A stretch of DNA of 64,000 bases, from assembly GCF_001625445.1 (NCBI RefSeq), contig NZ_LWHG01000011.1, positions 868,001 through 932,000 of the forward strand, given 5' to 3'. Below, piece after piece: positions 25,451 to 51,039 of this stretch. This stretch comes from Haladaptatus sp. R4 (lineage in GTDB: Archaea; Halobacteriota; Halobacteria; Halobacteriales; Haladaptataceae). A program made the translations under genes and the position numbers. Within the stretch, counting starts at the first letter, position 1, and every line of letters begins with the position of its first letter. The notes under the pieces are model-generated. The model searched no databases and was not told where the DNA came from. It saw only the letters and a program-made list of their open reading frames with translations.

Positions 25451-26737
25451 CTACCGAACGATATACGGTCCGTTTCGCGTCCCGAAAACCAACGATTGTG
25501 AGCTGTTTTCGGTCGAATTACTGCCGGTCGTGCTCGAACTCGAAGTCACGCGACCGACCCGCAACCGGTAGTACTGGGTGTCTTGCGACGGTTTGTTTTT
25601 CGACCACTGCATGCGGGCGTTCCCTCGGAGCGTGAACCCCTCTTCGAGCGAAACGTTCGACACGCGAATCGCGGAGCCGCCGTTCGTGACTTGGATGTCC
25701 CGGCCGAGTTGATTGCCGTTGAGGCGGAGGTTATTCAACTGCGTGGTCGCCGAAGTCGGCGCGACCACATCGAGGAGCAGGTCGGTGTACGGCCCCGTAT
25801 CCGTTGGTGCGTACGTCAGGTCACTCACGCCTTGGTTACCGTAGGTGACGATGGTAGTTTGCGGATCGTACGTGAGCGTGAACGGGCGGGTTTCGTTGTT
25901 CTGCCAGTCCTTGTTCGATCTGTTCTTCGGATTGTTGATCGTCGGACCGAGCCGATGCTCCGTCACCCCGGATCCGGATCCACCGACGCGTCCCTGCGCG
26001 ATGAACGCCTGTTGCATCGTGATCGAGTTGTACTCCTGTTGTGTGAGCGTCGTTATCGTAGGATCGGACGCCTGTCCACCCCCGGCCTGCAGCGATACCC
26101 GCGTCGTATCCACGTCGCTCCACCCGGCCGGGGAAACGCGCGAATTCAACGTGAGATCGAGATCGAAAACGAGGCGGTCTCCGTACGCGGCGGTCGATCC
26201 CGTCGGATAGTTCACCTCGAACACGAACACCGCCGGGGACGATCCGAGCGACGGTGACAGTTGAATCGCCTGCTCCGGTCGCCCCGCAACCGTGCTATAC
26301 GAGGCCAACGACGAACCATCGCCGAAAAAGTAACCGACCGTCGTCCCGTCACGTTCGAGGGACGCCCTGAACAGTAGTTCGTCGTCTAGTTCGCCGCCGT
26401 CTGCAGTGGACGTGTTCGACTCGCCGGATTCCGTCGTTCCTTCGTCAGTTGTAACGGTGGTGACGCCGAGGCTGATCGATTCACCGCCGGTGCTTCCGGC
26501 GTTCGTGAGCGACGTTCGATGAGTGTACGAACCGCCGGAACCGAGAACGAGGTCTCCTGCGGCAGGAATCCGATCCGTGTCGGATCCTTGCAGTTTGAGG
26601 TCGAGTGTCCCCCCGTCCGTTTCTCCGGCCGTCGAATCCGAAACGCCGTACAGAGCGCCCCCCGTCCCCGTCATCGCTGACGAACCGACACCGACCGCGA
26701 ATAACTGGAGCGCACGTCGTCTCGATAGCTCTCTCAT
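25451..26737 (-). CDS. Large exported TasA/camelysin-like surface protein
   Basis: This 428-residue exported protein starts MRELSRRRALQLFAVGVGSS, a twin-arginine-like signal. The mature N-terminus (DSTAGETDGGTLDLKLQGSDTDRIPAAGDLVLGSGGSYTHRTSLTNAGSTGGESISL) follows the TasA/CalY pattern seen in the gene at 27312. Residues 140-220 form a beta-rich domain with the WSDVDTTRVSLQAGG segment; the rest is Asn/Thr-rich and adhesin-like. No C-terminal anchor is seen. It is last in the order TasA-like, signal peptidase, this gene, and could be a fibre tip, anchor or alternate subunit. Function is inferred from context. Confidence 0.7.
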   Translation of the reverse strand: MRELSRRRALQLFAVGVGSSAMTGTGGALYGVSDSTAGETDGGTLDLKLQGSDTDRIPAAGDLVLGSGGSYTHRTSLTNAGSTGGESISLGVTTVTTDEGTTESGESNTSTADGGELDDELLFRASLERDGTTVGYFFGDGSSLASYSTVAGRPEQAIQLSPSLGSSPAVFVFEVNYPTGSTAAYGDRLVFDLDLTLNSRVSPAGWSDVDTTRVSLQAGGGQASDPTITTLTQQEYNSITMQQAFIAQGRVGGSGSGVTEHRLGPTINNPKNRSNKDWQNNETRPFTLTYDPQTTIVTYGNQGVSDLTYAPTDTGPYTDLLLDVVAPTSATTQLNNLRLNGNQLGRDIQVTNGGSAIRVSNVSLEEGFTLRGNARMQWSKNKPSQDTQYYRLRVGRVTSSSSTTGSNSTENSSQSLVFGTRNGPYIVR

Positions 26738-26796
26738 CGACTCACCGCGAACCAGTAGGGAGCGCAGATATTTGTGACTTTTTCATTAGAATAAAA

Positions 26797-27261
26797 TTAT
26801 TCTAACCGAGTAAAAAAGTAGCCAGCGGCTCCCATAAGCACACCGCCGCCGAGGATCGCGTAGAGATACGCACTACGCGAGAAAACCGGGTGAACCAGAT
26901 ACCCGTATAGCGGAATCGACAGGACGACTTCACCACGAATTTGGTCCCGATGGACGACGAAGGAATCCGGATACGTTCGAGCATCACCTTTCGTCACGAA
27001 TCCATCGTTCGTCTTCCGAACGATCCGGTGAGTGACGAGTTCACCGTTCTGTGCGAAGGTGATCGCATCCCCGGATTCGTAGTGACCCGAATCGTACGTG
27101 TAAACCACGCTCCCGGGCTTGAGGGTTGGTGTCATACTTCCACTCAGGACGACGTAGCTTCCCACGCCGGGCAACAGCGTGAAAAGGATTTGTCCGACTA
27201 TCGGGAGTAGGAGGATTCCGAGAACGATCCAACCGAGTCGGGAGGGACGGACGAACCTCAT
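26797..27261 (-). CDS. Type I signal peptidase (SipW-like)
   Basis: This 154-residue membrane peptidase has an N-terminal anchor (residues 10-30), catalytic S42 in VVLSGSMTPTLKPG, catalytic H78 in LVTHRIVRK, a KGDARTYPDS box with D93 and a C-terminal membrane helix (about 130-148). Two-anchor signal peptidases of this kind process SipW-dependent substrates. The ATG at 27261 is preferred; a GTG at 27279 is an alternative. A TATTTTAA-like element near 27292 predicts a start close to 27266. It lies between two TasA-like genes, its probable substrates. Confidence 0.88.
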   Translation of the reverse strand: MRFVRPSRLGWIVLGILLLPIVGQILFTLLPGVGSYVVLSGSMTPTLKPGSVVYTYDSGHYESGDAITFAQNGELVTHRIVRKTNDGFVTKGDARTYPDSFVVHRDQIRGEVVLSIPLYGYLVHPVFSRSAYLYAILGGGVLMGAAGYFFTRLE

Positions 27262-27311
27262 CAATCTGAATACGAGCACAACACACTTAAAATAAGTATG
27301 GCATTATTTGA

Positions 27312-28007
27312 TTATTGGCTGCTGTCCTGATTGAGCGTGAAGTTGACCGCGATGTCGACGCCGTCAGCCATCACATCCTCGTCAGCTCCGGTTAGATTAC
27401 CGGTCGTATCGGCACCGGTCCAGTACGCAGCGTTGTCGTTTGCGACTTCGAGGTCGAGAGTGAAGTACGTCGTACTCGAACTGTTCGGAGCGGGTGCTTG
27501 CAGATCATCGAGCACGTTCGTCTGCGCGTTCACCTCTTGGAGATCGACGTATCCGTTCCCGTTCGTATCCGTCACGTTCGACGTGATGTCGTCGAGGACG
27601 GTCCCTTGCGGGCTCTCGTACTGCATCGTCTGAACGCGAATAAGACTCGCCGTCTCGGACGCGTTCAGCTCGTTGGCGAGCTCGGAGTCGTTCGGTTCGG
27701 CACGGAGGTCGTTTTCCGTATAGTTGAAGCCGATTTCGAGATGATCCGCCTCCGTCGATCCCTCGTTCGTCAGCGCGTACGTGTGATTCACCTGGTCACC
27801 TGGTTGGGCATTGATCAGGTTGAAATCCTCCGTTGTGCCATTCGCGCTGCCGTTTATTGCGAGGTCCATCGTACCGGCCTCGACCGTGTTACCCGTGCTT
27901 GAGTCCGTGTCGCTCCAGAACGCCCACGTCCCGACACCAGCGAGAATACCACCGGCGATGACTATCAACGCAAGCGCAATTTTGGTTCTTCTGTTGTTTA
28001 TTTCCAT
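27312..28007 (-). CDS. TasA/camelysin-like fibre subunit with SipW-dependent signal
   Basis: This 231-residue exported protein has signal MEINNRRTKIALALIVIAGG continuing to AGVGTWAFWSDTDSSTGNTVEAGTMDLAINGS. F-x-D-T-D-S-S-x-G-N-x-x-x-A-G-T-x-D-L is the hallmark of SipW-dependent TasA/CalY proteins. The remainder is an acidic, N-glycosylatable beta-sandwich (INAQPGDQVNHTYALTNEGSTEADHLEIGFNY). Bacterial TasA and archaeal bundling pili use this fold for biofilm fibres. It heads the locus with a strong AT-rich promoter upstream (GATTTAAC near 28040). Fibre assembly is inferred. Confidence 0.82.
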   Translation of the reverse strand: MEINNRRTKIALALIVIAGGILAGVGTWAFWSDTDSSTGNTVEAGTMDLAINGSANGTTEDFNLINAQPGDQVNHTYALTNEGSTEADHLEIGFNYTENDLRAEPNDSELANELNASETASLIRVQTMQYESPQGTVLDDITSNVTDTNGNGYVDLQEVNAQTNVLDDLQAPAPNSSSTTYFTLDLEVANDNAAYWTGADTTGNLTGADEDVMADGVDIAVNFTLNQDSSQ

Positions 28008-49430: not shown

Positions 49431-50397
49431 ATGGGAGGACACAGCGCGGAGCGAATCCCGCTCGCCCGACTGCGTCGGGCGTCGAACTCGAAACGACGAT
49501 ACACACCTACGAGGGTGCCGAAGACGGCCCTACCCTCTACGTACAGGCGGCCCAGCACGGCCGCGAGATCAACGGAAGCGAAGTGCTCCGACGGTTCCAC
49601 GAGGAGATCGAGACGGAGACCCTCGCGGGCCGAATCGTGGCGGTGCCGGTCGCGACCCGCTCACGTTCGACCGGGTGTCGTACACCACGCCCGAGCAGTT
49701 GGACAGTATCAACCCGAACATGAACCGGGTCTGGCCCGGCGACCCCGGCGGGACGATTCACGAGCGCATGGCGGCGACGCTCTGGGAGTACGCCAGCGAG
49801 GCGGACGCCATCGTGGACCTCCACACCGGCAGTCCGAACATGATGACCCACGTCGTCTTCATGGAGGGCGACGAGGAATCGCGCGCGTTGGCGGAAGCCT
49901 TCGGCACCGACCTCCTGCTGTCGGAGGAGGCGGGCGACGACGCCGACGTGGAGTGGTCCGAGCGCAACTTCGGCGGCAAGTTCCGCGTCGCGGCCACGCG
50001 CGAAGGTATCCCGTCCATCACGCCGGAGCTCGCGCACAACAAGGAAGTCGTCGAGAACGCGGTCGAAACCGGACTTACCGGACTCACGAACGTCTGCCGG
50101 GAGCTCGGAATGCTTGCCGCATCTCCGCTGGAGAACGGGGAGAAAGTACTGGCCCGCAATCACCTCGGTCGCGTCGATGCCGACGATTCCGGACTGTTCG
50201 TCGTGGAGTCGAACCACGAAATCGGCGACGAAGTCGAGGCGGGGGAGCGCATCGGAACCCTGTACGACCCGGCGACGTACGAGGTTCGACAGGAGGTAGA
50301 AACCGACCGCGACGGAATCCTCTACGCGTTAACCCGCGAATCGACCGTATGCGGGGGCGGCAAGTTGCTGAGTGTGGCGCTCCTCCGCGAGGAGTGA
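49431..50397 (+). pseudogene. Succinylglutamate desuccinylase / aspartoacylase paralogue, two frameshifts
   Basis: The expected reading is ERIPLARLPSGVELETTIHTYEGAEDGPTLYVQAAQHGREINGSEVLRRFHEEIETETLAGRIVAVPVANPLTFDRVSYTTPEQLD, with zinc H-x-x-E in QHGREING, DLHTGSPNMMTH and a C-terminal barrel-sandwich (ARNHLGRVDADDSGLFVVESNHEIGDEVEAGERIG). The frame breaks near 49472 (one C missing) and 49655 (one A missing). The 3' part from NPLTF is continuous to 50397. The ATG at 49431 fits a TTTATA box near 49338 better than the ATG at 49356. It is paralogous to the gene at 39073. Confidence 0.8.
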
Positions 50398-51039
50398 GAG
50401 CGACGTACCGTTCCGTTCCATCGAGCCAGTTCGTGAAGAACGGGACCCCGTGAACGTCACGCTATTTTTCGAGGAGTGAGAGAGCGCCGGTGACAGTTTA
50501 CCGATTTTCGGGACGCGAGCGATGGCGACGCCGATGATCCAGCCGGGACGAACCGGCGAGGAGATGCCGACCGCTTGGTCGTAATACCCGTTCGCGTCCC
50601 CTTTGGTGATGAATCCCGAGTGCGGTGCCGGACAGTTCCGAAGTTGGGCACAGCTATCCGCACCCGCGACGTACGATGCGTTCGCTTTGTCGTACCAGTT
50701 TTCGCCCTTCGTGACCCAGAACCGCGCACGATGGAGGACGGGAATCGCCGAGTCGTTTCCGTACGGGTGGTAGACGAGGACGTTGCCGGGACCGCCGAGC
50801 GTCTCGAAACCGTCCTCCTTCCCGCTCTGCGCCGAAACGACGCCATCCCGACTATCCGGCGGCGTGACGCGGTGTTTGTCCATCACCACGACCACGTCCG
50901 TCTGGTTGACGTGCGGCGACATGCTCCCGCTGATGACGGTGTACGCGGGCGGCCAGACGCCCAGCGTCACCACGAAGAGAATACTCACGACGAGAACGAC
51001 GGCGACCACGCTGGCAATCAATCGACGGAGGCTGAACAC
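50329..51039 (-). CDS. Type I signal peptidase, long form
   Basis: This 236-residue archaeal signal peptidase has an N-terminal anchor (residues 7-30), catalytic S39 in ISGSMSPHVNQTDVVVV, H103 in PVLHRARFWVTKG and D148 in FITKGDANGYYDQAVG. An inserted loop with two cysteines (DSCAQLRNCPAPH) could form an external disulfide. The last 55 residues after KIGKLSPALS look unlike the family and overlap the neighbouring gene by 69 bases. A one-base indel near 50480 would end the protein at 50462 with SLLEK instead. The start is ATG 51039. Confidence 0.85.
   Translation of the reverse strand: MFSLRRLIASVVAVVLVVSILFVVTLGVWPPAYTVISGSMSPHVNQTDVVVVMDKHRVTPPDSRDGVVSAQSGKEDGFETLGGPGNVLVYHPYGNDSAIPVLHRARFWVTKGENWYDKANASYVAGADSCAQLRNCPAPHSGFITKGDANGYYDQAVGISSPVRPGWIIGVAIARVPKIGKLSPALSHSSKNSVTFTGSRSSRTGSMERNGTSLSLLAEERHTQQLAAPAYGRFAG

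Follow-up and report, generated by a model that had tools for sequence, protein, structure and literature searches.

A predicted TasA-type surface fibre locus with a dedicated SipW-like signal peptidase in Haladaptatus sp. R4

Bacillus biofilms have TasA as their scaffold, a protein whose subunits join by donor-strand exchange. Bacillus cereus has one signal peptidase, SipW, for two TasA-like proteins, and without this enzyme no fibres are made (PMC4292775). Homologs of TasA are already known from archaea (PMC10151520, PMC9674648), and a literature search of limited reach returned no work on SipW in haloarchaea. The window analyzed here is a stretch of 64,000 nucleotides from Haladaptatus sp. 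R4 (contig C11, positions 868001-932000; genome of 4.9 Mb, labeled G000). It contains, in a group of three genes, a TasA-family protein, a SipW-like peptidase and a second exported protein with a TasA module.

The three genes and their products

All three ORFs of the preliminary description are present on the minus strand, separated by 50 bp (P0001/P0002) and 59 bp (P0002/P0003); an alternative GTG start of P0002, at position 27279, is possible. The features are as follows.

27312-28007, minus strand: P0001, 231 aa, predicted main subunit of the TasA family (family and fold matches)
26797-27261, minus strand: P0002, 154 aa, ER-type SipW-like signal peptidase of a divergent SipW clade
25451-26737, minus strand: P0003, 428 aa, two-domain protein with a predicted Tat signal
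26618-26737, minus strand: twin-arginine signal region of P0003, residues 1-40, with the motif SRRRAL (RR invariant in homologs)
26123-26632, minus strand: N-terminal half of P0003, residues 36-205, divergent TasA module (profile comparison and model)
25553-26083, minus strand: C-terminal half of P0003, residues 219-395, choice-of-anchor W domain (NCBIfam), with a lectin-like fold in the model

Comparison with the nearest relative (genome G004) gave dN/dS values of 0.08 for P0001, 0.18 for P0002 and 0.20 for P0003, which indicates that these are real, constrained genes, P0001 being the most constrained of the trio. Synonymous divergence in the same pair (the window and locus L017) is uneven among these neighbors (dS of 0.25, 0.32 and 0.64 for P0001, P0002 and P0003, respectively), and high expression of P0001 could explain its lower value.

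P0001 is a true relative of TasA and camelysin, with the TasA-type beta sandwich. It passed the cut-offs of Pfam family PF12389 (44.7 bits; cut-off 22.5) and of NCBIfam model TIGR04088, which covers the SipW-type signal and mature start (32.8 bits; cut-off 19), and stayed below that of the narrow Bacillus equivalog NF046066 (35.3 of the 450 bits needed). A profile of 50 haloarchaeal relatives (A5), searched against PDB sequences, found TasA of Bacillus subtilis at 5e-13, with the whole domain covered. In the AlphaFold2 model of P0001 (mean pLDDT 78.8; 113 residues at 90 or above), the four best Foldseek matches were four TasA entries (prob 1.00, E from 5.9e-6 to 2.2e-4); the next match had an E value of 3.5e-2, and no other fell below 0.01. 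The TM-scores against TasA were moderate (0.36-0.48).

The signal of P0001 is Sec-like, and cleavage is predicted after GTWA (residue 29). In the model, the signal and the early mature part are unstructured and of low confidence, and the first strand does not begin before residue 49. This predicted free N-terminus matches the segment A28-S41 of TasA, which moves freely as long as the protein is monomeric and supplies the inserted strand once filaments form (PMC10151520); as a single-chain prediction, it is compatible with a filament formed by donor-strand exchange. P0001 also contains, at residues 147-158, an EF-hand-like loop of 12 residues (DTNGNGYVDLQE), which is conserved throughout its clade and in some neighbors; that this loop may bind calcium is a guess.

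P0002 passed the cut-off of TIGR02228 (NCBIfam; 71.1 bits, cut-off 51.85). The motifs S-x-SM-x-P, THR and TKG are invariant in P0002 and its 12 relatives, as are S42, H78 and D99 over the 13 aligned sequences, i.e. the Ser/His/Asp arrangement of ER-type enzymes and not Ser/Lys; the presumed roles of these three residues are those they have in ER-type peptidases. The score against the Bacillus SipW equivalog NF046067 (NCBIfam) was 59.8 bits, short of the cut-off of 190, and P0002 is thus SipW-like and not the Bacillus equivalog. Ordinary haloarchaeal SipWs likewise stay below 190 (93-117 bits). A bacterial origin of the divergent SipW was considered and rejected, since its score with the Bacillus model is lower, not higher, than theirs.

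P0003 has the motif SRRRAL in its signal region, and the mature part behind it starts in a TasA-like manner. The S and both R residues of this motif are invariant in six aligned homologs; the protein carries a conserved twin-arginine signal and is a predicted Tat substrate. The consensus is no longer well kept in its cleavage region (GGA-LYGVSD). The N-terminal half resembles P0001 in BLASTP (E of about 3e-4 against a database of small size), and with the signal removed it matched the TasA profile in hhalign (96%, E 4.3e-9, 168 columns); the C-terminal half, put through the same comparison as a negative control, gave nothing (0.3%). On this profile evidence, the N-terminal half is a divergent TasA module. 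Residues 219-395 passed the cut-off of the choice-of-anchor W model NF041928 (89 bits; cut-off 45).

The model of P0003 (mean pLDDT 75.3) consists of two confident beta domains, with an unstructured N-terminus ahead of the TasA-like one. The Foldseek matches listed for it include a TasA fibre structure, donor-strand pilin chains and concanavalin-type lectins, the last with prob 1.00 and TM-scores on the target of 0.42-0.49. As these matches are listed without aligned ranges, we infer that the lectin match belongs to the C-terminal half, an assignment helped by a sub-threshold match of that half to the Pfam legume-lectin family PF18483 (16.3 bits; cut-off 78.3). Among PDB sequences, the choice-of-anchor W domain had chance matches only and no lectin, and P0003 as a single sequence found nothing; a single-sequence scan of the genome contigs confirmed no relatives. 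A scan with profile A4 returned three weak actinobacterial SipW-type proteins and nothing else. A viral origin of P0003 was rejected, as there was no match among phage records.

These results bear out the SipW-dependent TasA/CalY-type start that the preliminary description had read in P0001, the motif being present and TIGR04088 passed. For P0003, it had proposed a TasA-like mature start behind a Tat-like signal. SRRRAL and the homology of the N-terminal half uphold this, although P0003, like the proteins of loci L017 and L018, did not reach the TIGR04088 cut-off, which the choice-of-anchor W fusions of loci L084 and L022 pass. The description was incomplete as well, since it had missed the choice-of-anchor W second half.

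Export signals, gene coupling and distribution

We surveyed the signals of 132 distinct haloarchaeal TasA/SipW-type precursors with a readable cleavage region, a set that comes from related genomes and was gathered by profiles containing both signal types. RR is present in the n-region of 128 of them, 126 fit a Tat-like pattern, and 100 have Phe at P2′, the site by which TasA is recognized as a substrate of SipW (PMC10269814). Three of the four precursors without RR are members of the P0001 clade; the sequence NRRTKI, present in P0001 and in its nearest relative, lies outside the Tat pattern. The preliminary description had held a Tat route of the larger subunit to be unusual. This view is not sustained, since nearly all of the haloarchaeal precursors examined carry a twin-arginine signal and extensive use of Tat is a known trait of haloarchaea (PMC12186497). 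Judged by its signal, the unusual protein is the main subunit P0001, which has no canonical Tat motif. Its export is probably by Sec, given the absence of a canonical RRx-hydrophobic motif, though NRRTKI remains.

In the tree of mature TasA sequences, as in that of SipW, the same five loci make up one clade (SH-aLRT 99 each): those of the window, G004, G008 (H. caseinilyticus) and G084, and a second copy in the Haladaptatus sp. R4 genome, on contig C30. The divergent SipW clade has a long stem, and the two trees agree, from which it follows that the TasA clade without a conserved RR is paired with a SipW of its own. Its distribution is patchy (three of nine Haladaptatus genomes and, in another family represented by 18 genomes, one clear member).

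Further copies were observed in the same genome. That on C30 (L008:5095-6970) has a Sec-like TasA and a divergent SipW, in the order TasA, a 237-aa SipW-type protein without RR, and SipW. The equivalent middle gene in G084 (L024) has the twin arginine, and the export signal therefore seems to have been switched. An ordinary SipW of the haloarchaeal clade is located at 93-1082 of the window (plus strand; core about 528-944). Beside it, just outside the window, lies the gene of a Tat/SipW-type TasA-like protein of 324 aa (C11:866531-867505; L007:6532-7506, minus strand). Together with those of the trio and of C30, this peptidase brings the genome to at least three SipW genes. The gene at 50329-51039 of the window (minus strand), with a weak SipW-profile match (1e-10) and a very long branch, probably encodes a housekeeping-type signal peptidase.

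SipW was found within 3.7 kb in all 36 TasA-anchored loci counted, on the same strand in 32; four further loci were not readable by motif. Conversely, each of the 17 SipW-anchored loci has a TasA-like protein within the same 17 kb, and none of three housekeeping-type signal peptidases with weak SipW matches has such a neighbor. Such kits are common in haloarchaea. Close matches to the P0001 profile occur in 59 of the 392 genomes of the order, whereas relatives of P0003 occur in fewer (10 of 392).

The trio and its surroundings are kept in G004. On plasmid NZ_CP111040.1 of H. caseinilyticus the three genes also lie together, with P0003 divergent to the other two, and bear the NCBI names signal peptidase I, TasA family protein and choice-of-anchor W domain-containing protein. 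In six genomes of g51, a genus of another haloarchaeal family, TasA, SipW and a choice-of-anchor W fusion with a TasA-like N-terminal half (by a profile check on L084) occur together. In G003 (L020:5611-8401), the P0003 homolog is split into a TasA-half gene and a choice-of-anchor W-half gene, adjoining SipW, both genes having a Tat signal; the TasA half is present there once more, as a divergent third copy. Large haloarchaeal clusters (L022, L124, L125, L128 and L134) contain one SipW and several TasA-like proteins of the Tat type, 300-600 aa long, a variety of subunits far above the need of one fibre.

The proposal of a TasA-type locus with a dedicated signal peptidase at 26797-27261 is supported by the families, the folds and the coupling of the genes: P0001 and the N-terminal half of P0003 are both TasA-like, P0002 has the invariant ER-type motifs, and a TasA-like neighbor was present at every SipW locus examined; neither of the two outcomes that the preliminary description had named as refuting was obtained. 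Co-occurrence, which it had suggested checking across haloarchaea, was seen for the three components in G004, H. caseinilyticus and g51, and for the pair of TasA and SipW in all loci counted.

Assembly model and alternatives

We consider it fairly probable that these three genes specify a TasA-type surface fibre, in which P0001 polymerizes after cleavage by SipW and P0003 is a minor, lectin-bearing subunit. According to this model, P0001 would be exported, probably by Sec, and held by its signal anchor until P0002 cuts it after GTWA. The cut would free the unstructured N-terminal strand, which would enter the groove of the next subunit by donor-strand exchange, so that fibres grow. P0003 would be exported folded by Tat and processed by the same peptidase. 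Its TasA module may then bring it into the fibre, where it would be a minor, terminal or decorating component displaying the lectin-like domain for adhesion. Speaking against the model are the moderate TM-scores to TasA, the altered cleavage region of P0003 and its score below the TIGR04088 cut-off, and the failure to find a TapA homolog.

The proteins may instead be SipW-processed surface proteins that do not polymerize, i.e. monomeric or S-layer-associated adhesins in which the TasA fold is kept for another purpose. Haloarchaeal TasA-like proteins are indeed highly diverse in length and number, beyond what a single fibre subunit would lead one to expect. We nevertheless regard this reading as rather unlikely for P0001, which is strongly constrained, has a free N-terminal segment of the kind that TasA uses and would be left without a C-terminal anchor after cleavage (such an anchor was looked for and not found). 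Less likely still is that P0003 is a functional TapA, which would sit at the filament end as a nucleator, donating its N-terminal strand and accepting none, with the choice-of-anchor W domain blocking growth. TapA does nucleate TasA by N-terminal strand donation (PMC10151520), and P0003 has the unstructured N-terminus ahead of a TasA-like domain and is larger and faster-evolving than P0001. Yet its N-terminal half is like TasA, not like the Ig fold of TapA, and no TapA was found for it in NCBIfam, in PDB sequences or among the Foldseek matches listed. Tandem TasA-like genes lacking a choice-of-anchor W domain are, moreover, commoner in haloarchaea, so that no dedicated nucleator need be assumed. 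It is highly improbable that P0001 is a secreted metalloprotease of the camelysin type, as the name of PF12389 (camelysin metallo-endopeptidase) would have it: the protein lacks HExxH and contains just two histidines, on which ground this reading was rejected, and its best structural matches are TasA fibre structures.

In preference to these alternatives we retain the fibre model, and we tentatively propose that haloarchaea may possess two parallel fibre systems that differ in export route, an idea we hold to be possible though doubtful. In the common system, subunits would be folded and exported via Tat, polymerizing only after SipW frees the N-terminal strand. The rare one, represented by this locus, would pair a Sec-type main subunit with its co-diverged SipW and take up a Tat-exported, lectin-bearing TasA module into one mixed-route fibre.

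Archaeal TasA homologs and the NCBI names of the trio genes in a relative were already known. Two features merit further attention: the division of TasA proteins into Tat-type and Sec-like ones with separate SipW clades, and the fusion of TasA with choice-of-anchor W. If haloarchaea do export the TasA fold in folded form via Tat, the signal anchor must retain the N-terminal strand until SipW releases it, which would make the peptidase the switch of assembly. Haladaptatus has both signal types in one locus and genome, together with two kinds of SipW, which allows direct comparisons of export route and of peptidase specificity. Through the lectin-like domain, archaeal biofilm fibres would gain a candidate adhesion function.

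Comparison with described systems

The locus resembles tapA-sipW-tasA of B. subtilis in having a TasA-family subunit, an adjoining ER-type SipW and a second exported component. With sipW-tasA-bc_1280-calY of B. cereus, the closest experimental parallel for one SipW with two TasA-like proteins, it shares two such proteins and the lack of TapA. It differs from the Bacillus systems in gene order, in the divergent SipW clade, in the second component (a Tat-signal TasA module fused to choice-of-anchor W) and in the EF-hand-like loop of the main subunit.

The archaeal bundling pili (AbpA of Pyrobaculum calidifontis; AbpX, PDB 9sj2 and 9rhp) are archaeal donor-strand fibres related to TasA, as is proposed here. 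The P0001 family is nearer in sequence to TasA than to AbpX, which profile A5 reached in the PDB at 3.5e-4 (5e-13 for TasA). AbpA was absent from the PDB matches of this profile, and AbpX from the Foldseek matches of P0001 with E up to 0.001.

The haloarchaeal Tat-type clusters, whose proteins are named SipW-dependent-type signal peptide-containing proteins by NCBI, also have TasA-like proteins beside SipW, and their Tat signal is of the kind seen in P0003; P0001 and P0002, in contrast, fall into clades of their own, that of P0001 without a conserved twin arginine. The C-terminal half of P0003 is the same domain as in NF041928 proteins of other archaea. Outside haloarchaea this domain can stand alone, ending in hydrophobic PEF-CTERM-like tails (IPEFS..P..; L139, L141 and L143), which support the view that it is carried by different predicted surface anchors; in P0003, a TasA module takes the place of such a tail.
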